A stretch of DNA of 64,000 bases, taken from the NCBI RefSeq assembly GCF_017357825.1, contig NZ_CP046072.1:2108001-2172000 (forward strand), written 5' to 3'. The DNA is from Sulfurimonas aquatica. GTDB taxonomy: Bacteria; Campylobacterota; Campylobacteria; Campylobacterales; Sulfurimonadaceae. How positions within the stretch are numbered: position 1 is the stretch's first letter; every line of letters begins with the position of its first letter. The notes beneath the pieces were generated by a model. That model was not told the DNA's origin, did no database searches, and saw only the letters and a program-made list of their open reading frames with translations. Positions 15,060 to 64,000 of the stretch are shown piece by piece. The translations under genes were made by a program, and so were the position numbers.

Positions 15060-15281
15060 TTAGAGCTTATAAAGATAGTTCTCTAAAGTTTCAGCATCAT
15101 TTATAGAGCGCTTGTCAAGCATCATTTGTGCTATGGAGTCATCAGTAAGCATTTTATATATCTCATTTGGACTGCTCATATTGTAGTAACTTTTAATAAA
15201 CTCTAATAGCATGTCAAAATTATCATCTTTTGTACTATATTTTTTATGTTCTTTGTACTCATCCCAGTTAATTGTTGCCAA
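15060..15281 (-). CDS. Small acidic protein of unknown function in the ovothiol cluster
   Basis: 73 residues if translation starts at TTG 15281 (MATINWDEYKEHKKYST). That codon has GAAGGAA six bases upstream, inside the end of the PLP-enzyme gene. An upstream in-frame TTG at 15302 would add seven residues but has a poorer site. The protein is helical, with KSYYNMSSPNEIYKMLTDD in the middle and no cysteines or membrane segment. It overlaps the preceding gene by 14 bases, which indicates coupling. I do not recognise the family. Confidence 0.65.
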   Translation of the reverse strand: MATINWDEYKEHKKYSTKDDNFDMLLEFIKSYYNMSSPNEIYKMLTDDSIAQMMLDKRSINDAETLENYLYKL

Positions 15282-16476
15282 GGCTTTTCCTTCTATTCTC
15301 AAGTGCGGTTTTTAATCTTTCAATTATAAGTAACATTTTAGCAGATGAAACAGCAAAGTTCAACCTCATATAGCCACTTCCCTCTCGTCCAAAGCTTATT
15401 CCGGCATTGAGCCCAAGCTTAGCTTCGTTTATGAAGAATTCTCTGATTTTTTTATCTTTTAGCTCAAGGCCATGACAATCTATCCAAGCTAAGTAAGTAG
15501 CTTCAATCGGCGTTAACTTAAGAAACTCATTATACTCATGACAGAGTTCTTCAAGTTGTAAATAATTGGAGTAGAGATGCTTTTTAAGATCTTCTAACCA
15601 ATACTCTCCCTCTTTATAAGCCGCTTCAAACGCCACATGAGAGAGAACACTTCCTTGTGCAAAATGTATTCTATTATAAGCTTTTAAAAACTTCTCTTTA
15701 AGCTCTTGATTATGGATAGCTACACTACTCATAGCAAAACCAGCCATGTTAAATGTTTTACCAACGCCATACGTACTAAGAGTTATATCGCTTGCCGCTT
15801 TAGAGAGTGATGCAAAAGGAATATGTTTATTTTCTCCATAAACTAAATCAGAGTGTACCTCATCTGCAAGAACAACTATATTATTTTCTATACAAACTTC
15901 TAGGATTGACAGTAGCTCTTCTCTTGTCCAAACTCTTCCAACAGGGTTATGAGGAGAACATAATAGAAGTAACTTCGTATCAGAGTCTATTTTTGATTTT
16001 AAATCTTGTATGTCAAAAGCGTATTTTCCATCTTCTCTTTTTTTAAGTGGATTTTTTACAAATTTTCTCTCAAGCTCTAAGACACTATGAAAAAATGGAG
16101 GGTATATTGGTGTTTGAACTATTACTCCTTCTCCTTTTTTAGTAAACGCTTCTATTGCCACACGGATGGAAGCAACCACGGAGTGAGAGTAGATCATATC
16201 AGCTCTCTTATAAGATATTCCATGTCTTTTTTCAAGCCAAGAGCACTGAGCTTCAAAGGCGGAATCAGGAACCTCTTCATAACCTATGATAGGATGATCA
16301 AGCCTTTTTCTCACAGCATTTAAAACAAAGTCTGGAGTATCTATATCCATATCGGCAACCCAGGCAGGTTCCACGTCAACTGTTCCAAAAAGTTCTTCTC
16401 TTAAGGTATATTTCTCAGCATTCGTATCTTTTCTACAAGCACTATGTGAAAAATCATAACTTACTTTTTCTTCCAT
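15268..16476 (-). CDS. PatB/MalY-type PLP C-S lyase, candidate OvoB sulfoxide lyase
   Basis: 402 residues, fold-type I. The PLP-lysine motif STYGVGKTFNMAGFAMS (Lys about 239), the LLCSPHNPVGRVW stretch (about 170-182), VVLADEVHSDLVY (about 203-215) and the C-terminal R-L-N-F are those of the MalY/PatB cystathionine beta-lyase group. It overlaps the end of ovoA by 16 bases. Ovothiol synthesis needs exactly a PLP lyase (OvoB) to cleave 5-histidylcysteine sulfoxide between the two OvoA steps, so this is the best candidate. A plain cystathionine or cysteine lyase cannot be excluded from sequence. Confidence 0.85.
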   Translation of the reverse strand: MEEKVSYDFSHSACRKDTNAEKYTLREELFGTVDVEPAWVADMDIDTPDFVLNAVRKRLDHPIIGYEEVPDSAFEAQCSWLEKRHGISYKRADMIYSHSVVASIRVAIEAFTKKGEGVIVQTPIYPPFFHSVLELERKFVKNPLKKREDGKYAFDIQDLKSKIDSDTKLLLLCSPHNPVGRVWTREELLSILEVCIENNIVVLADEVHSDLVYGENKHIPFASLSKAASDITLSTYGVGKTFNMAGFAMSSVAIHNQELKEKFLKAYNRIHFAQGSVLSHVAFEAAYKEGEYWLEDLKKHLYSNYLQLEELCHEYNEFLKLTPIEATYLAWIDCHGLELKDKKIREFFINEAKLGLNAGISFGREGSGYMRLNFAVSSAKMLLIIERLKTALENRRKSLGNN

Positions 16477-18563
16477 ATACTAACCTCTGAAATTGTATGT
16501 TGGTACTTACGCGCCGTCTCTTTAATGACAAATTCCAAATCTTCTCTATGGATAAGTTCAAATTTATCGCCTAAAACAGTTTGTAAACTCTCTATAGTTT
16601 TCACTTCTTTACCACTTTCATCTGAAAAACCACCAAGCCAAAACTCTTTTTTTGTAGAACTCTCTTGCCATGTATATGGAGAGGTAATCATTAATATGCC
16701 ATCTTTATTAAGTCTCTCATCTATAGTATCTAAAAATAATCTTGGATTATAGAGTCTATCTATAAGGTTTGTTGCCATTATAAGGTCATAAGAAGTAAAG
16801 TTTGGCTTTAGATTACAAGCATCGCCCTGCCAAAAAGAGACCTTCTCTTTTAACGAATCATATCCCAACTCTGAAATTGTAACTTTCTTATTTGTTGCTA
16901 AGCTTCCCTCTTCAAGAGTACTAAACGCGACATAAGAGTCTGACTTTAACTTCGCCCCAACCTGAACGAAACGCACCGAGAAATCAATGCCCTCTACTTC
17001 ATCAAATGTTTTTGCCAACTCAAATGTTGCTCTTCCCGTTGCACAACCAAGGTCAAGCGCTTTACCTCTGTTAATTGCATACTTTGAGGCAATAGCTGCC
17101 GTAGACTTGGCAAAATTTTCAACGCCAAAATGCGTATCTCCATACTGAAATTCACAATACTGCGAAACTAACTCGTCACTCTCATATATATCTGCCACTT
17201 CTTCATCCTTTGTATTTGTAACTACGTATCTAAAACCCGCATTTTGATAAAAATGTCGTCTAAAAGCATATCTAGAATGCTTTGTTATTAAATTTCCACT
17301 GCTTGCCCATGACGAGCCCAGTATAAGAGCATGCTTCTCATCAAACGTTGGAACAGAAAAGTCATCATAAGCTTCATGTACTTTAAAACCATCAAAAGGA
17401 CGGATTGGAGTTCTACTCCACTGCCATACGTTTCCTACAACGTCATAAATGCCATGAAAATCAAACTCATTCACAGGACAAGAACTTGCATAGTGATAAA
17501 AATCCAGATTAGCTCTACTCTCATGAAAGTCTGGAATATCTTTTATTTGCGCTTGATTATAAATAGCTCTGTATTCTACTTCGCTTGGAAGAGTATAAGA
17601 TACTCCACTCTTGTTTTCTTTATATCTACAAAATGCTTCTGCTTCTAGTGCGTTAACTTCAACGGGCCAATCATCTGGCATTTCTATCTCTAAAGCGAGT
17701 GTTCTATATTTATAAACGCCATCTTTAAAAATCCAAAAAGGTGGATGTTTTACACCAGTGAGTTCTAAAAACTCTTTTCCCTCATCGCTCCATAACTCTT
17801 TGTTCTCATAGCCGCCATCTAGTACAAACTCCATAAATTCGCCATTACTAACAAGATATTTCGATGCTTTAAAGTCAGGTATGTCTTGATTAAACGCCCC
17901 ATATTCATTGTCCCAGCCATATAGCGCATGAGATGGCTTTTCTACTCCAAGGTGAATATCACAACCTTTTATTTCAACAAGCTCATTCATTGGTGCTTTT
18001 GAGCTTTTTGTACATATAGGAAAATCAACCGTCTCTTTTACAAGTTCGATGGGCATCTGTCTATGTAGTACTAATGACGTCTCAATATGAATTCTCTCAT
18101 GCTCAATCCCCATAAGAATAATCCACATAGCAGACTTTTGGGTAATTGGTAAAGAGAGTGGTATAGTTGTAATCAGCTCATCAACAAGTTCTCTCACCCT
18201 ATTCCTATATGCTCTTACGTCTGTAACCTCTGGCCAATTGGATCTTGCGTTCTCCATATCATCCCATGACATCTCATCAACACCTACGGCAAATATAGAC
18301 TCATAGCTTGGATTAATTCGCTGTGAAATAACTTTCATTGCCATAAGTTTATTAATGTAAAACGTAGCGGTATGTCCAAAATAAAATATCATTGGATGAC
18401 GAGTGATTTCAGACTTTTTATAAAATACATCATCATCTTTAAGAACTTCAAACACTTTTTCAAAAAGATCAAATGTATTATGAAAGTACTCTTTTATCTC
18501 TTGGCGTTTAGTCTCAATACTATCGCCATACAGTAACGGAGAATATCTACTCAGTTTACTCAA
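16461..18563 (-). CDS. ovoA: Ovothiol biosynthesis bifunctional protein OvoA
   Basis: 700 residues in three parts: a DinB-like N-terminal domain (about 15-165) with the iron site H155-X3-H159-X-E161, a formylglycine-enzyme-like domain (about 190-440; YVVGNVWQWSRTP-type core, here DVVGNVWQWSRTP), and a SAM methyltransferase (about 480-700; ALDLGCATGRATFELA). OvoA joins cysteine to histidine as a sulfoxide using iron and oxygen, and later methylates 5(4)-mercaptohistidine to ovothiol. The start is TTG 18563, with AAAGGA at good distance. The need for oxygen is notable in what is probably a microaerobic organism. Confidence 0.93.
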   Translation of the reverse strand: MSKLSRYSPLLYGDSIETKRQEIKEYFHNTFDLFEKVFEVLKDDDVFYKKSEITRHPMIFYFGHTATFYINKLMAMKVISQRINPSYESIFAVGVDEMSWDDMENARSNWPEVTDVRAYRNRVRELVDELITTIPLSLPITQKSAMWIILMGIEHERIHIETSLVLHRQMPIELVKETVDFPICTKSSKAPMNELVEIKGCDIHLGVEKPSHALYGWDNEYGAFNQDIPDFKASKYLVSNGEFMEFVLDGGYENKELWSDEGKEFLELTGVKHPPFWIFKDGVYKYRTLALEIEMPDDWPVEVNALEAEAFCRYKENKSGVSYTLPSEVEYRAIYNQAQIKDIPDFHESRANLDFYHYASSCPVNEFDFHGIYDVVGNVWQWSRTPIRPFDGFKVHEAYDDFSVPTFDEKHALILGSSWASSGNLITKHSRYAFRRHFYQNAGFRYVVTNTKDEEVADIYESDELVSQYCEFQYGDTHFGVENFAKSTAAIASKYAINRGKALDLGCATGRATFELAKTFDEVEGIDFSVRFVQVGAKLKSDSYVAFSTLEEGSLATNKKVTISELGYDSLKEKVSFWQGDACNLKPNFTSYDLIMATNLIDRLYNPRLFLDTIDERLNKDGILMITSPYTWQESSTKKEFWLGGFSDESGKEVKTIESLQTVLGDKFELIHREDLEFVIKETARKYQHTISEVSIWKKK

Positions 18564-57489: not shown

Positions 57490-58296
57490 TTACTTATTAT
57501 TTAACTCCCATTTGGCTATTTTGCTATCTTCGTGAATAACATGAAGAACTACCCACTCTTCTATAAATAGTGCTAAATTATCTTCAATCTCTTTTAAAGA
57601 GAGCAATGAGAATTTTTTAATGAATTCATTCATTTTTATTTTAATATTCTCATGTATCACAATATGCTCTTTTAAAGCAGGATAATTAATCGACTCCATA
57701 TACTTCTCTTCATTGCTAAAGTGTTCAATTACATATTTATATAATTCATGAATTATATTTTTAATTTTTTCTTTTCTCTGATGTGCAGGAACATATCTAA
57801 AAGCTTCATTCGCTATTTCAAAAAGGTGTTTATGCTCTTTATCAATGAGATCATTACCCAGCAAGTATGTGTCATGCCACCTTACACCTTTAATATCTAT
57901 ATGATACTTTTCACACCAGTGACGCATTTTCATATCTTCAAATTTAATATGTGTGATTATTGTGTTCTCAATATTAAATGCCAACTCTCTTTCTAGAGTG
58001 CTGATTGACTTATGCTTATGATTTTCTCTCCACTCTTGAAAATCTTTCTTAATTTTATCATGCGATTTTTTTTCATTTTGAAGGCCGGGATAGCCTATTG
58101 AGTCCATAAAGTCTTCTTCATGCATCATATGAATTTCAAAGTAATCACTTAATCTTTGTATTAGTGAACTCATCTTCTGCTCTTTTTGAGATGGTTCAAC
58201 AACACAAAAGGCTTCGTTTGCAATTTTGAAAAGCTCTTGATGCTCCTTATCAAGCATCAAATGACCTAACTCATACTCCTTCTTCCATTCAAACAT
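57490..58296 (-). CDS. Tandem (two-domain) hemerythrin-like protein
   Basis: 268 residues, two hemerythrin domains with an exact 136-residue period. Copy 2 has all seven ligands: H155, H192, E196, H211, H215, H252, D257. Copy 1 has H19, H56, E60, E75, H79, H116, D121: Glu replaces one iron histidine (E75 for H211). Bacteriohemerythrins bind oxygen at a di-iron centre. Here one site is normal and one altered. The protein has no membrane segment, so it is cytoplasmic, likely for O2 storage or sensing. Confidence 0.9.
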   Translation of the reverse strand: MFEWKKEYELGHLMLDKEHQELFKIANEAFCVVEPSQKEQKMSSLIQRLSDYFEIHMMHEEDFMDSIGYPGLQNEKKSHDKIKKDFQEWRENHKHKSISTLERELAFNIENTIITHIKFEDMKMRHWCEKYHIDIKGVRWHDTYLLGNDLIDKEHKHLFEIANEAFRYVPAHQRKEKIKNIIHELYKYVIEHFSNEEKYMESINYPALKEHIVIHENIKIKMNEFIKKFSLLSLKEIEDNLALFIEEWVVLHVIHEDSKIAKWELNNK

Positions 58297-58912: not shown

Positions 58913-59992
58913 TTAGTTTCGATCCATCGCGTTTAAGTCTTTAAATGCTTGAAGAACACGCTTTACTAAAGTTTCTTGTCCAGCACGTAACCATTTTCTT
59001 GGGTCATAGTATTTTTTATTTGGTTTATCATCACCTTCAGGGTTACCAATTTGAGCCTGCATATAATCACGATTTTTCTCATAGTAGTCTCTTGTACCTT
59101 CCCAAGTTGCCCACTGAGTATCTGTGTCAATATTCATTTTGATAACGCCATAGCCTATTGCTTCTTTTATCTCACTAGGCTCTGAACCTGATCCGCCATG
59201 AAACACAAAGTTCACAGGTTTAGCAGAAGTTCCAAACTCTTGTTCAATATATTTTTGAGAGTTATCGAGTATTTTAGGTGTGAGTTGTACATTTCCTGGT
59301 TTATAAACACCATGAACATTTCCAAATGAAGCGGCAATAGTAAAGTGAGGAGATACTTCGCTTAACTCTTTATAAGCATATGCAACATCTTCAGGTTGAG
59401 TGTAAAGAAGCGAGTTATCAATGTTTGTATTATCAACACCATCCTCTTCTCCACCTGTAACGCCTAACTCTATCTCTATACTCATCTCTATTTTACTCAT
59501 GCGTTCTAAGTAGTTTTTACATAAAAAGATGTTTTCAGTTATGCTCTCTTCTGAGAGATCAAGCATATGAGATGAAAAGAGTGGAGTTCCATTTGCCTTA
59601 TAATAGTTTTCACTTGCAGTAAGAAGTGCGTCTATCCACGGAAGAAGTTTTTTTGCAGCATGGTCTGTATGTAAAATAACAGCCACACCATAAGCTTCAG
59701 CCATCATATGAGTATGAAGAGCACCAGAAACTGCACCAGCTATTGCAGCTTTTTCATCTTCATTTGAGAGTCCTTTACCTGCATAATAAGACGCTCCCCC
59801 ATTACTAAACTGAATGATAACTGGAGAATTCGCTTTTGCAGCTGCTTCTAAAACACCATTAATAGAGTCTGTCCCTACAACATTAACAGCTGGAATAGCA
59901 AATCCAACTTCTTTTGCATGTGCATATACTTTTTGTACATCTTCTCCAAAAAGAACACCAGGTTTTACGATATCTAAAATGCCTTTACTCAT
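58913..59992 (-). CDS. fba: Class II fructose-bisphosphate aldolase
   Basis: 359 residues. AIPAVNVVGTDSINGVLEAA (about 33-52), ILHTDHAAKKLLPW (about 106-119; Zn His and catalytic Asp), EIELGVTGGEEDGVD and the FHGGSGSEPSEI phosphate site (about 264-275). It splits fructose 1,6-bisphosphate, here most useful in gluconeogenesis. ATG at 59992. Confidence 0.96.
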   Translation of the reverse strand: MSKGILDIVKPGVLFGEDVQKVYAHAKEVGFAIPAVNVVGTDSINGVLEAAAKANSPVIIQFSNGGASYYAGKGLSNEDEKAAIAGAVSGALHTHMMAEAYGVAVILHTDHAAKKLLPWIDALLTASENYYKANGTPLFSSHMLDLSEESITENIFLCKNYLERMSKIEMSIEIELGVTGGEEDGVDNTNIDNSLLYTQPEDVAYAYKELSEVSPHFTIAASFGNVHGVYKPGNVQLTPKILDNSQKYIEQEFGTSAKPVNFVFHGGSGSEPSEIKEAIGYGVIKMNIDTDTQWATWEGTRDYYEKNRDYMQAQIGNPEGDDKPNKKYYDPRKWLRAGQETLVKRVLQAFKDLNAMDRN

Positions 59993-60091: not shown

Positions 60092-60745
60092 ATGCTTAAG
60101 CCAAAAAATAAAGAGATAAATACTGATATTGTACTAATAGATATTATAAACTTCTCTAAATTGAAATCAGCACAACAACTTGAAATAGTTAGTTTTATCA
60201 CTCAAAGCTATAGAAGAATGATAGAGAAGATGCTACATGATTCAAATATGCCTCTTTCTAGACTTATTCTTGGCTACATTTCGACTGGTGATGGTTTTTA
60301 TTGTCTACTCAACCCTAGACTAAAAGGGTTTGGAACTATACTGGGCCTTAGCTTTAACCATTTTTCTGATCAAATAGCCAAGAAGTATCCCTATTTCGAA
60401 GGTGTTAAAATTGCTGTTCATACAGGAATAGTGCATGAGTTCAAAGACATATTAGGTAATACTAACTTTATAGGTGATGGATTAAATGATTGTGCTAGAT
60501 ACTTAGAGGTAAAGCACTTTACTATATCTACTGTTATGATTTCAGATAGTGCTTATGAGTATTTGAAAAAGTTTCTTCATCATCATCAAGACTATAATAA
60601 GCTTTTAGTCCAAAGAGAATTTAAACACTCTAATGTGCATACCTTTCATGATAAACATGGAAATGAGAAAAAAGGTTGTTTGGTATGGTTAAGAAAATCA
60701 GGTATCATTAATCCACCTGACATCAACTTTAATTCACTGATATAA
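60092..60745 (+). CDS. Standalone class III nucleotidyl cyclase domain protein
   Basis: 217 residues, nearly all one cyclase homology domain. Metal aspartates D17 (VLIDIINFSKL) and D67 (STGDGFYCLL), and the transition-state pair N132/R136 (GDGLNDCARYLE) are present, as is VKIAVHTGIVH (about 105-115). The two base-choosing positions are I63 (usually Lys) and N125 (usually Asp), so nucleotide specificity should differ from adenylyl cyclase. No sensor or membrane part. It lies 24 bases before a coiled-coil protein. The product is unknown. Confidence 0.8.
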   Translation: MLKPKNKEINTDIVLIDIINFSKLKSAQQLEIVSFITQSYRRMIEKMLHDSNMPLSRLILGYISTGDGFYCLLNPRLKGFGTILGLSFNHFSDQIAKKYPYFEGVKIAVHTGIVHEFKDILGNTNFIGDGLNDCARYLEVKHFTISTVMISDSAYEYLKKFLHHHQDYNKLLVQREFKHSNVHTFHDKHGNEKKGCLVWLRKSGIINPPDINFNSLI

Positions 60746-60769
60746 AAAATAAAACTTAAAAGGAAAACA

Positions 60770-61432
60770 ATGAGATTTACAATAGATGCATACTCGAAAC
60801 AATTTAAAATGTCCACTGAGATGATAAACTCAAAACTCAAGGCTAAAAAACTAAATTATATTATTGAAGATGGTATTACATATATTATAGTTAAACAGAG
60901 TTCTGTTATAACTTCTGAAGAAGCACAACCGAGTGAAAATCCTCCTAAAAGCCCTCCTCCCGTTAAACAAAAAACTACCGTCGCTATGGTTCTCTCTTTG
61001 TATCAAAAAGAGAATCAACAGCTCAAAGATAAAATCGTTCAACTTGAATCAAAAATTGACAAACTTATTAATGATAAAGAGCAGATGCTTCGAGATGAGA
61101 TGAGTAGAATAGAACATGTTTACTCTACTAAAGATGAACAGCTAAAAAATATAATAGAGTTAATAAATACAAAACTATCATCAGAGCAAACCAATACGGT
61201 ACACGAAGTAGAAACTCTCACAAGTATCGAAGTAGAAAAAGCACCTGTTCAAGAGAAAATTGTAGAACTTAAAGATTATCTAAAAACACTTGACTTAGAA
61301 TCATATCAACGTAAAGTTATAAAAAAGAGATTTTTAGCCGCATATGATGAAGACATCCGTGTTATAAAGCAAAATGGCAAGCTCTATTTAAACTTTTCCA
61401 AATATGACTATAGCGATCTACTGGAGTACTAA
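60770..61432 (+). CDS. Coiled-coil protein with N-terminal HTH-like part
   Basis: 220 residues. The start (about 5-45, SKQFKMSTEMINSKLKAKKL then a short beta hairpin) looks like a small DNA-binding or MerR-like fold. A Pro-rich stretch (NPPKSPPPVKQ, about 56-67) precedes a long coiled coil (about 75-145), a Val/Glu linker, and a C-terminal domain with DLESYQRKVIKKRFLAAYDED and LYLNFSKYDYSDLLEY. AAAAGGAAA lies before the ATG. I do not recognise the family. Its gap of 24 bases from the cyclase gene suggests an operon. Confidence 0.7.
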   Translation: MRFTIDAYSKQFKMSTEMINSKLKAKKLNYIIEDGITYIIVKQSSVITSEEAQPSENPPKSPPPVKQKTTVAMVLSLYQKENQQLKDKIVQLESKIDKLINDKEQMLRDEMSRIEHVYSTKDEQLKNIIELINTKLSSEQTNTVHEVETLTSIEVEKAPVQEKIVELKDYLKTLDLESYQRKVIKKRFLAAYDEDIRVIKQNGKLYLNFSKYDYSDLLEY

Positions 61433-61755
61433 AAGTACTCTAATGGGTAAATAGTCTCAACTTCTTCGACCTAACAACTCTCACCAACACTCTCTTTTAC
61501 ACAAACTAGCAAATATAAAACATAATAAATAATTAATAACACATATAGAAAATCAGTGATTAATACTTTCAAAAACTAAAACAGTTAATTAAAGTATAAA
61601 ATTTACACGGAAAACCGTATATAATACCATATATGGTAGATATAATATAATTAAAATATGATATAAAATACATTTTATATATTTTAATACACATATAATA
61701 TATTATAATACATAATTAAATGTATATTTAAGTATATAATCCGTATAATCTTCCA
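61433..61755. promoter_or_regulatory. AT-rich intergenic region with palindromes
   Basis: About 320 bases without a gene, extremely AT-rich from about 61500 on. Visible elements: the perfect 14-base palindrome TACCATATATGGTA (61625-61638); the hairpin ATATAAAA-TACA-TTTTATAT (61661-61680); TATAAT boxes at 61735-61740 and 61744-61749 just before the HTH gene. A regulatory or bent-DNA region is likely; no origin or att site is evident. Confidence 0.5.
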
Positions 61756-61995
61756 ATGCAAATAAATGATTTATTCAATATTCTTCACAACTCATTAGAA
61801 TCACAGAACAATGGGAAAAAAATATCTTTAAAAGATATGGCTTCTAACTTTGGAATTTCTATGAGAACATATCAAGACTGGAAGCTTGGACGTGCTAAGC
61901 CACAAGCTGCTGCAACAGTCATGCAAATGTTAGGAAAGTTAGATGATGATGAGATCATAAGAGCTGTTCGAAAAATAAATGCACTAGAGGGCTAA
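61756..61995 (+). CDS. Small helix-turn-helix protein
   Basis: 79 residues. ISLKDMASNFGISMRTYQDWKLGRAKPQAAATVMQML (about 23-59), short as NFGISMRTYQDWKLGRAKP, is an XRE-type HTH; the rest is helical. The TATAAT at 61744-61749 ends six bases before its ATG and no SD is seen, so the mRNA may be leaderless. It probably regulates itself through the palindromes upstream. Five bases before the next gene. Confidence 0.78.
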   Translation: MQINDLFNILHNSLESQNNGKKISLKDMASNFGISMRTYQDWKLGRAKPQAAATVMQMLGKLDDDEIIRAVRKINALEG

Positions 61996-62306: not shown

Positions 62307-62591
62307 ATGAACAAAGCTCAATTCGTTGAATTAGTACAAGCAAGTGGCGACTACAAAACTAAAGTAGAAGCAGAAGCTGCAATTAAAGCATTTACAGAAG
62401 CTGTAACTACTGCATTAGTTAAAAAAGAGGAAGTTTCTTTAGTAGGCTTCGGAAGTTTTGCTGCTGCTCTTCAAAAAGGTAAAAGTGGAAAAGTACCTGG
62501 TACTGATAAAACTTATACAACTCAAGATAAAATGGTTCCTAAATTTAAAGCTGGTAAAGGTCTTAAAGACCGTGTTGCAGCTGGTAAATAA
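62307..62591 (+). CDS. hup: HU-family nucleoid protein
   Basis: 94 residues. MNKAQFVELVQASG start, VSLVGFGSFAA (about 43-53) and KVPAFKAGKGLKDRV-like ending (here MVPKFKAGKGLKDRV, about 76-90). The DNA-binding arm reads GKSGKVPGTDKTYTTQDK, the version seen in other Campylobacterota. AAGGG precedes the ATG; a 14-base palindrome (62265-62278) lies in the leader. A terminator follows. Confidence 0.96.
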   Translation: MNKAQFVELVQASGDYKTKVEAEAAIKAFTEAVTTALVKKEEVSLVGFGSFAAALQKGKSGKVPGTDKTYTTQDKMVPKFKAGKGLKDRVAAGK

Positions 62592-62598
62592 AAATTAA

Positions 62599-62628
62599 AT
62601 TACTGTCAGGTTTTTGGCAGTAATTTTT
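62599..62628 (+). terminator. Rho-independent terminator of hup
   Basis: Arms ATTACTGTCA (62599-62608) and TGGCAGTAAT (62615-62624) pair over ten positions with one G-U, loop GGTTTT, and a T5 run to 62628. It sits only 6 bases before the next ATG. Confidence 0.85.
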
Positions 62629-62634
62629 CTTATA

Positions 62635-64000
62635 ATGAAAATACCTTTCATAGACTCACTTTTTAAAAAAGAAATAAAACCTCTCAGTGTTCCTGATTCC
62701 ATACTTGTAAAAAAGTTAAAAGAACTCTCTTCGCAAACAGACATATCATTATACAAAGACATGGAAATTTATCACCATACTAAAAGTTTTCATATACCGC
62801 TTATGATGTTAGATGCTTCTCGTGGTCTTTATATTTTTGAAGCAAAAGATTGGACATTCGATGAATTAAAAAATGCAAATATTCAAAAAGCAGAGAATCA
62901 AACCTCTTCTCATGACACTTTAGCATTTCAAAATAGACAAGATATAATAAGAAAAAAATTCAATGAACTCACACACAGTGATGGAATACCTATTTTTAAC
63001 TACCTTTTGATGGAAAATTTAAATGCTGATGAATATGAGCATTTAAATGATTCATTTAAAGAGTTACTCCCTCGTGAAAAGATTATTTTTAGCGACTCAT
63101 CTCAAGGTGATATACTTAAAAAACTCCATGATGCATCAGCACCTCATAAAAATCTTTGTAATGTAAATGACACAATGGGAACACTGTTAACGCAGTATGC
63201 AATTTTAGATGATAGACTAAATCTTTATCTCTGTAGTGATGAACAGATCTCACTTATAGATCAAGAGATAGGTAAAGAAACAATTATAAAAGGTAGCTAC
63301 GGAAGTGGTAAAAGTAGTGTTTTACTTTTAAAAACAGTTGTTGAACTTTTTAACAATCCTCATAAAAAAATTCTAATTATAAAACCTACAGTACTTGCAT
63401 GTGATATCTTAAAGAAAAAACTCTTAGATATTATAGAACATGGGATTATTGAAGTTGACTTAACATCTGTAGAAATTTTAACTCCATTAGAGCTTCTAAA
63501 TAAGCATCAAGCTAAACTTGGAAGAGAGACACTTGATAATCTAGATATTGATAACAAACTCATGAGTAAATCATTTAATGTAGCTGATATTATCATGTGT
63601 GATGATGCAGATCATTTTTCTACAGATTTTATTGAATACTTAAAACATCTACAAAAGAAATCTCAACTTCTACTCATATATACTGATACTCAAGAGAGTG
63701 ACTTAAATAAAGAGTATAGAGTAGCAAGGGAGACTATCTCTTTTCATCAAACAAACCCTCATGCCAAGGCACTCCATATCATATCTACACTATTAGCAAA
63801 AGGTGAAGAAAATATAGTACTAGTTAGTAATAGTCTAAGTGCTCAAAAACTAAAAGATGATTTGGAAGACTTTATTGAGTATGAGCCAAAAATAGTAGAT
63901 AGTTCTCAACATATCATTAACCAAAGTAATATTAACTTCATATTTTGTACATATGCTGACCTCAATGAGCTCTCTGCAAAACATATTATTTTAATGGATT
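62635..64000 (+). CDS. P-loop helicase-like protein (partial, continues beyond window)
   Basis: 455 codons are visible, starting MKIPFIDSLFKKEI. Walker A GSYGSGKSS (about 222-230) and a Walker-B-like IIMCDDADHF (about 320-329) with IFCTYADLNELS later resemble superfamily 1 (UvrD/Rep-like) helicases, with an N-terminal domain of about 200 residues of unknown kind. The ATG at 62635 has no SD; TTG at 62614 is in frame and would overlap the hup terminator hairpin. The 3' end is outside the window, so domains after this cannot be judged. Confidence 0.7.
   Translation, partial: MKIPFIDSLFKKEIKPLSVPDSILVKKLKELSSQTDISLYKDMEIYHHTKSFHIPLMMLDASRGLYIFEAKDWTFDELKNANIQKAENQTSSHDTLAFQNRQDIIRKKFNELTHSDGIPIFNYLLMENLNADEYEHLNDSFKELLPREKIIFSDSSQGDILKKLHDASAPHKNLCNVNDTMGTLLTQYAILDDRLNLYLCSDEQISLIDQEIGKETIIKGSYGSGKSSVLLLKTVVELFNNPHKKILIIKPTVLACDILKKKLLDIIEHGIIEVDLTSVEILTPLELLNKHQAKLGRETLDNLDIDNKLMSKSFNVADIIMCDDADHFSTDFIEYLKHLQKKSQLLLIYTDTQESDLNKEYRVARETISFHQTNPHAKALHIISTLLAKGEENIVLVSNSLSAQKLKDDLEDFIEYEPKIVDSSQHIINQSNINFIFCTYADLNELSAKHIILMD

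Follow-up and report, generated by a model that had tools for sequence, protein, structure and literature searches.

The question raised by this locus is what a nucleotidyl cyclase-like protein without the usual purine-choosing residues would make, and whether the coiled-coil protein encoded directly behind it receives the signal. An earlier note, made from the DNA alone, had read the two genes as a nucleotide-signal pair, and had pointed to the pyrimidine cyclases of Pycsar phage defence as enzymes that also lack the standard residue pair. The genes lie on the chromosome of Sulfurimonas aquatica, in a stretch of 64,000 nucleotides that was analysed as a whole and is called hereafter the window. 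The features are the following.

58913–59992, minus strand: class II fructose-bisphosphate aldolase (by inspection), divergent, left flank in Sulfurimonas
60092–60745, plus strand: 217-aa single-domain protein with class III nucleotidyl cyclase fold, lacking a sensor (open reading frame, model, alignment)
60140–60142, plus strand: codon of D17, first metal-binding Asp (Asp in 46/46 intact homologues)
60278–60292, plus strand: codons 63–67, I-S-T-G-D, with I63 at the Lys/Glu position, T65, and D67 as second metal Asp (alignment)
60464–60499, plus strand: codons 125–136, with N125 at the Asp/Cys position and N132 and R136 as transition-state residues (each in 46/46 intact homologues)
60650–60658, plus strand: D187-K188-H189, subfamily signature (46/46 intact homologues; also in a distant, TIR-linked relative, genome G095)
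60770–61432, plus strand: partner, 220 aa, with winged-HTH-like start, long coiled coil and small C-terminal domain (open reading frame, model)
60770–60904, plus strand: partner residues 1–45, predicted BldC/Xis/MerR-like winged-helix fold (Foldseek, VIA)
60980–61195, plus strand: partner residues 71–142, single long helix of 72 residues, coiled coil (model; ten-residue pLDDT means 81–96)
61756–61995, plus strand: small HTH-like protein on the right flank (all matches weak)
62307–62591, plus strand: HU-like DNA-binding protein (by inspection), right flank

Translation and alignment placed D17, D67, N132 and R136 at the class III cyclase positions, and I63 and N125 at the purine-reading positions, which carry neither Lys/Asp nor Glu/Cys. 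All this had been stated in the earlier note, which was also right that the 217-aa cyclase has no sensor domain and is followed 24 bases downstream by the coiled-coil partner. T65 lies two residues before the metal Asp D67, I63 four before it, and N125 seven before N132. Conservation was examined in 48 distinct homologous sequences, of which 46 are intact and two decayed (G009, and G428, whose copy lacks the start and stops early). L15, D17, T65, D67, N125, N132, R136 and D187-K188-H189 were unchanged in 46/46 intact homologues. Position 63 was Ile in 34 and Val in 13 of the 47 rows aligned there, and the position three after the second metal Asp was Tyr (Y70 here), replaced by Phe in 8 of 47 aligned rows. 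With T65 and N125 invariant and only Ile or Val at position 63, the base pocket is, as judged from this alignment, selected and not drifting.

The three ordinary cyclases (PF00211) of the same genome served as a control on the residue reading. They have Lys (KYIGD, KFIGD) at the offset of position 63, read by motif distance as the automatic alignment gapped that column, and Thr at the offset of position 125; at the DKH site they have GKD, GRH or GQS. The window cyclase shares with such adenylyl and guanylyl cyclases the fold and the Asp-Asp-Asn-Arg catalytic set, but differs from them by Ile/Asn in place of Lys/Asp or Glu/Cys, by the DKH motif, by a longer spacing of the metal Asps, and by the absence of a sensor domain and of any PF00211 match, the latter being a library convention and not a biochemical criterion. 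No library match rose above chance (best E 0.085 in Pfam, 0.031 in NCBIfam and 0.053 in PHROGs, none in PADLOC), and sequence searches against solved structures gave chance matches only.

In contrast to these sequence searches, structure prediction, a check that the earlier note had proposed, gave a clear result. The AlphaFold model, built with ten sequences (pLDDT 77, pTM 0.79), has a class III cyclase fold over residues 1–203 by both Foldseek and VIA, with VIA Z up to 17.5 (best match 8hbf, 180 aligned, rmsd 2.9). The best Foldseek match was 9bcv (E 8.3e-9); the uridylate cyclase 8jsz came third (E 1.3e-8) and BcPycC, 7r65, was at rank 46, both standing among purine cyclases in the list. In VIA, 8jsz scored Z 15.5 (193 aligned, rmsd 3.2). 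On the strength of the model, the window cyclase is an unnamed subfamily variant within the class III cyclases. If active, it represents a subfamily that four family libraries (Pfam, PADLOC, NCBIfam, PHROGs) miss, and its base pocket differs from those of all adenylyl, guanylyl and pyrimidine cyclases compared.

How far this pocket resembles that of the Pycsar cyclases was judged from passages of PMC11224242, with offsets from the two metal Asps (D1, D2) calculated from the residue numbers published there. EaPycC, which uses CTP, has Phe at D1−2, Arg at D2−4 and Gln at D2−2; AnPycC, which uses UTP, has Phe at D1−2, Lys at D2−2 and Phe at D2+3; for BcPycC, also a UTP enzyme, the residues are Y50, D94 and R97. 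The window cyclase has L15 at D1−2, I63 at D2−4, T65 at D2−2 and Y70 at D2+3, in addition to N125 at the Asp/Cys site. It therefore shares with the PycC enzymes (clades A–E) the class III fold and a non-standard residue pair, and its polar invariant residue two before the second metal Asp may recall Q144 of EaPycC and K104 of AnPycC. However, the set L15, I63, T65, Y70 and N125 equals none of the three studied sets, and D17 and D67 are 50 residues apart, versus 44 for the corresponding residues in two PycC enzymes of that source, so that a few residues are inserted ahead of the second metal strand. As for membership of a PycC clade, there was no PADLOC match and the residues differ from those of the three enzymes. 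Purine cyclases with non-standard pairs are also described in passages of PMC4215837, among them the guanylyl cyclase Cya2, with Glu-Gly, and enzymes with Thr at the second site, so that the product cannot be read from the sequence.

The test of pairing across genomes that the earlier note had suggested came out in its favour. The cyclase precedes the partner in 45 of 48 distinct sequences, with 13–186 bases between match ends (median 23); among intact cyclases it does so in 44/46. The unpaired ones are the decayed G428 copy, near a contig end, and those of G040 and G056, which have other neighbours. The reverse dependence does not hold. Of 37 same-genus genomes, tabulated by hand, 35 have a close partner and only 17 an intact cyclase, leaving 18/35 partner-bearing genomes without an intact cyclase. 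Matches to the partner family, paralogues included, were found in 181/185 genomes of the family, and partner matches in 39/60 relatives and 124/397 genomes of the phylum; cyclase matches were found in 21 of the 60 relatives, two of them decayed. Conservation of the partner was 0.83 with a cyclase (31 sequences) versus 0.77 without (14 sequences) for residues 1–45, and 0.80 versus 0.76 for residues 161–220. By the cut-offs used, and uncorrected for kinship, no partner position switches or loses its residue in the cyclase-less set. Since it is retained in cyclase-less genomes with similar conservation, the partner is no obligate receptor, and on the same grounds the idea of a signal enzyme with a dedicated receptor is not supported. 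The nucleotide-signal pair of the earlier note therefore survives in part: the cyclase fold, the non-standard residues and the conserved pairing stand, whereas the partner's role as receptor, which its conservation without cyclase, the paralogue described below and the lack of any cyclic-nucleotide-binding family match all speak against, is not supported.

The partner itself resembles no named family closely. In Pfam no family was above cut-off, and there was no cyclic-nucleotide-binding, TIR or membrane family; its best match in Pfam, PADLOC, NCBIfam and PHROGs together was a tail tape-measure family (E 0.0062), which is not convincing, and the PADLOC match to HEC-07 (E 0.065) is at chance level. 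Structure comparison of its start gave BldC (6ama) as the best Foldseek match, with E 0.18 and probability 0.98, no match reaching E 0.001 or lower, and VIA aligned it with the phage Xis protein 4j2n (Z 6.1, 49 aligned, rmsd 3.8), under the safe level of that tool. RacA (5i44) was among the weaker matches (VIA Z 3.8), and four relatives of the paralogue matched HTH_17 (E 6e-5 to 3e-6, one above cut-off). These modest scores for a winged helix, followed by the helix of residues 71–142, agree with the coiled-coil protein with HTH-like start of the earlier note, and the partner may accordingly resemble BldC/Xis/MerR-like winged-helix proteins with a coiled coil, such as RacA, in its predicted N-terminal fold and long helix. 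It differs from RacA-type proteins in that matches are weak and an extra C-terminal domain is present, and binding to DNA is a prediction from the model. PycTM, PycTIR and CNBD families were absent from its fold matches, which excludes nothing. The top VIA rows (8ohd, Z 7.0) were coiled-coil matches and were set aside as uninformative. An internal repeat, considered because both ends read strand-helix-helix-strand-strand, was unsupported (profile comparison probability 0.2%).

A second partner paralogue, roughly 25–40% identical, is present in 36/37 same-genus genomes. In the genome of the window it lies 10 bases behind a YajQ-family gene (PF04461; L119:4389-5547, that is G000:C1 at about 73.4–74.5 kb). 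Such proximity recurred at 4/5 loci examined in other families of the order: a single gene separates the paralogue from a YajQ-family gene in L135, and three genes do so in L128, L134 and L136. At the remaining locus, L127, the stretch fetched contained no YajQ-family gene.

Inspection of the surroundings revealed a fixed order in Sulfurimonas: aldolase (reverse), cyclase, partner, FapA-family gene where present, small HTH gene and HU gene. The sister genera g25 and g26 have the same right flank of cyclase and partner, with different genes on the left. In the stretches fetched, many of them short, the aldolase was found with 31 and the FapA-family gene with 23 of the 48 distinct cyclase sequences. 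The distance from aldolase to partner was 727–1025 bases with a cyclase (72 loci, some from the same genome), 561–571 bases with a decayed copy (G003, G009), and 101–176 bases without one (19 loci, 13 genomes); no cyclase remnant was detectable in these 19 gaps. Distances between 30 loci correlated alike for cyclase, partner and aldolase (r 0.53, 0.52 and 0.50, with 0/2000 permutations each), as expected for vertical descent. A promoter scan was uninformative (13 found versus 11.3 in shuffles).

Within its own family the cyclase was matched in 92/185 genomes, with decayed or truncated copies in G003, G009, G428 and G465 and a copy split over two contigs in G032. A search of 397 genomes of the phylum matched 33: 27 belong to the same family, two are G040 and the more distant G095 (E 1.8e-12), and in four the match is weak and partial. 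These four (G154, G210, G268, G329) match the profile over part of its length, within open frames of 615–932 aa, and were set aside, as was G303, matched with the G095 relative as query. G056, of the same order, carries a relative in the 60-genome set. Spread beyond Campylobacterota was seen through one contig scan for close relatives, which gave nine homologous loci, seven of them from Sulfurimonas or Sulfurimonadaceae, and through searches of plasmid, phage and viral sequences: plasmid and phage records gave weak partial matches only, none full-length, and viral contigs none. The variable position and the phage or plasmid carriage of a mobile defence gene were thus not found, synteny being fixed within the family, and the history of the cyclase looks, from these comparisons, like vertical descent with repeated loss and not like mobility.

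To what cellular function the cyclase belongs is best approached through its neighbours. In relatives the unit often has a third gene, whose product matched Pfam FapA_N above cut-off in both proteins scanned (E 6.8e-7 and 1.7e-9). According to passages of PMC6877527, FapA binds the PTS protein EIIA-Glc in Vibrio, and passages of PMC11607428 report its gene in flagellar operons, in a neighbourhood with sigma-28, YjfB and a transmembrane HTH protein; these passages mention no cyclase. In many relatives a FapA_N protein likewise comes after the partner, but the locus in the window has no FapA_N gene. There, an AT-rich gap of about 320 bases (61433–61755) separates the partner from the small HTH gene, at the place where many relatives have the FapA-family gene. 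By hand tabulation, the gene is present locally in 10/17 same-genus genomes with an intact cyclase, one copy being a fragment, and in 12/18 without any cyclase match; the seven of 17 cyclase-bearing genomes that lack it include that of the window. Because genomes lacking the cyclase, too, have it behind the partner, it was rejected as a cyclase-specific partner and is a neighbour of the partner, not of the cyclase.

The two unpaired intact cyclases have neighbours of their own. In G040 (L116:3498-6393) the gene is directly upstream, on the same strand, of a flagellin-like gene, FlaG, FliD and FliS. In G056 (L117:10493-11491) the cyclase has a fused C-terminal coiled coil and lies next to a gene of UDP-GlcNAc 2-epimerase type, with a possible bearing on flagellin glycans; a methyltransferase-domain gene is found further on.

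Co-occurrence with the flagellar gene FlhA, tabulated by hand, was examined in the 104 near-complete genomes of the family (at least 97% complete, at most 5% contaminated). An intact cyclase was present in 0/10 FlhA-less versus 54/94 FlhA-bearing genomes (Fisher p 0.0004), the ten FlhA-less genomes falling in four genera and thus not being independent. Over all 185 family genomes, FlhA was present in 82/88 with cyclase versus 77/97 without (p 0.01), and the six of 26 FlhA-less genomes that do carry a cyclase are all at most 94% complete. The same trend in the 60-genome set (21/21 versus 34/39) was not significant (p 0.15). The co-occurrence is no more than suggestive of a motility link.

Taken together, the reading that we favour, at a probability of roughly 0.45, is that of an active housekeeping class III cyclase serving a motility or cell-pole programme as an optional input to the partner module. 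The enzyme would belong to an unnamed subfamily of long standing in the Sulfurimonas family, would work as a dimer like its relatives, and would make what is presumably a 3',5'-cyclic mononucleotide. It would act as a housekeeping signal enzyme of that programme and would be encoded by the first gene of a unit consisting of cyclase, HTH/coiled-coil protein and often a FapA-family protein; the partner would bind DNA or a scaffold and would do its work also where the cyclase is absent. The fold prediction, the conserved catalytic residues, the fixed synteny and the patchy presence with decayed copies are observed, and the motility part draws on the FapA_N gene of relatives, the flagellar neighbours in G040 and the FlhA co-occurrence. 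Counting against it are the tie of the FapA-family gene to the partner, the non-independent FlhA-less genomes, the lack of the cyclase in about half of the genus, and the decayed or truncated copies in four genomes.

These losses fit a cyclase-fold protein without catalysis, which would bind a nucleotide and control the partner through contact, as do the adjacency to the partner at every intact family locus examined and the fused coiled coil of the G056 cyclase; nevertheless, the metal and transition-state residues are invariant in the 46 intact copies, which would be needless in a silent protein, and we regard this reading as very improbable. An ordinary adenylyl cyclase with altered purine-reading residues, supplying cAMP to Crp-like or other cNMP-binding proteins elsewhere in the genome, is a possibility to be taken seriously, although somewhat unlikely. 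Five cNMP-binding domain matches were found in the genome, including one in an open frame that, at 233 aa, is CRP-like in length, so that receptors of cAMP or cGMP may exist. Mycobacterial cyclases with Gln/Asn and Asn/His pairs make cAMP. Lys and Thr in the genome's own ordinary cyclases and, in the passages of PMC4215837 mentioned above, the pairs of Cya2 and of the enzymes with Thr further illustrate how base-choosing residues vary. In contrast, the invariance of T65 and N125 and the restriction of position 63 to Ile or Val in the 46 intact homologues are not what this explanation predicts, and three PF00211 cyclases are already present.

A Pycsar-like phage-defence pair, in which a pyrimidine cyclase makes a product that switches on the coiled-coil protein, would place the locus among systems that use cyclic pyrimidines as messengers of phage defence (PMC11224242, in the passages available). 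The absence of both standard pairs, a polar residue at position 65 (T65) as in PycC, and the third place of 8jsz in Foldseek agree with it, and a further argument comes from G095. There (L118:3970-5720, contig C6), a 384-aa distant relative lies 17 bases behind a Thoeris ThsB-like TIR gene (Pfam ThsB TIR E 1.3e-15; best PADLOC match PDC-M50B, 1.4e-11, with ThsB at 2.7e-10), the two forming a candidate defence pair. This relative is weakly above cut-off for PF00211 (23.1 versus 21.9 bits), and shares the I-x-T-G-D-G, N125 and DKH features with the window cyclase; with it as query in the 397 genomes, 26 of the 27 other genomes matched belong to the Sulfurimonas family, at 27–36% identity. Given the shared features and the TIR neighbour, one member of the subfamily is found in defence-like surroundings, and it plausibly has a common ancestor with the window cyclase. 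Against defence at the window itself, the residue set equals none of the three studied PycC sets, VIA puts some purine cyclases (Z 17.5, 17.3) above 8jsz (15.5), a ranking compatible with kinship to PycC, and the partner, about as conserved without the cyclase, belongs to no cyclic-nucleotide-binding, TIR or membrane Pfam family, PADLOC being at chance level for both proteins. The locus is chromosomal and fixed between aldolase and HU, plasmid and phage matches are weak and partial and viral contigs have none, and no adjacent Pycsar-type effector, that is a cyclic-nucleotide-binding domain with a TIR (PycTIR) or membrane (PycTM) domain, was found at the window locus. The hint of the earlier note at Pycsar is therefore weakened by residues and locus, the TIR-linked relative keeping a defence origin in view, and a present-day defence pair is in our opinion decidedly unlikely.

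A bolder form of the favoured housekeeping reading, unlikely as it stands, joins the two lines: the fixed chromosomal cyclase would make, as an everyday flagellar or cell-pole signal, a cyclic mononucleotide other than cAMP and cGMP, such as one of a pyrimidine, and would share its stock with the TIR-linked cyclase, having been domesticated in the Sulfurimonas family. The G095 relative makes the direction of such domestication, from defence cyclase to housekeeping or the reverse, testable. We know of no housekeeping pyrimidine signal tied to motility, which would thus be new; one study (PMC12489823) is said to ask what else cCMP and cUMP do in Pseudomonas. In the open-licence literature on Sulfurimonas cAMP, on Campylobacterota or flagellar cyclases and on FapA, none of the matches listed was, judged by title and opening of the abstract, on the cyclase-partner pair.

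Some other genes of the loci deserve mention. The G095 locus also has SbcC/SbcD-like genes (by inspection), the larger of which has LmuB as its best PADLOC match. In the window, an ATPase/helicase-like open frame (62614–63999, plus strand, running off the end; Pfam matches all under cut-offs) keeps its position in many relatives and diverges fast (22–54% identity). A protein with two hemerythrin domains is encoded at 57490–58296 (minus strand). Further away, at 15268–18563 (minus strand), OvoA (5-histidylcysteine sulfoxide synthase, both domains above cut-off) lies beside a PatB-family C-S lyase, likely constituting an ovothiol pathway.
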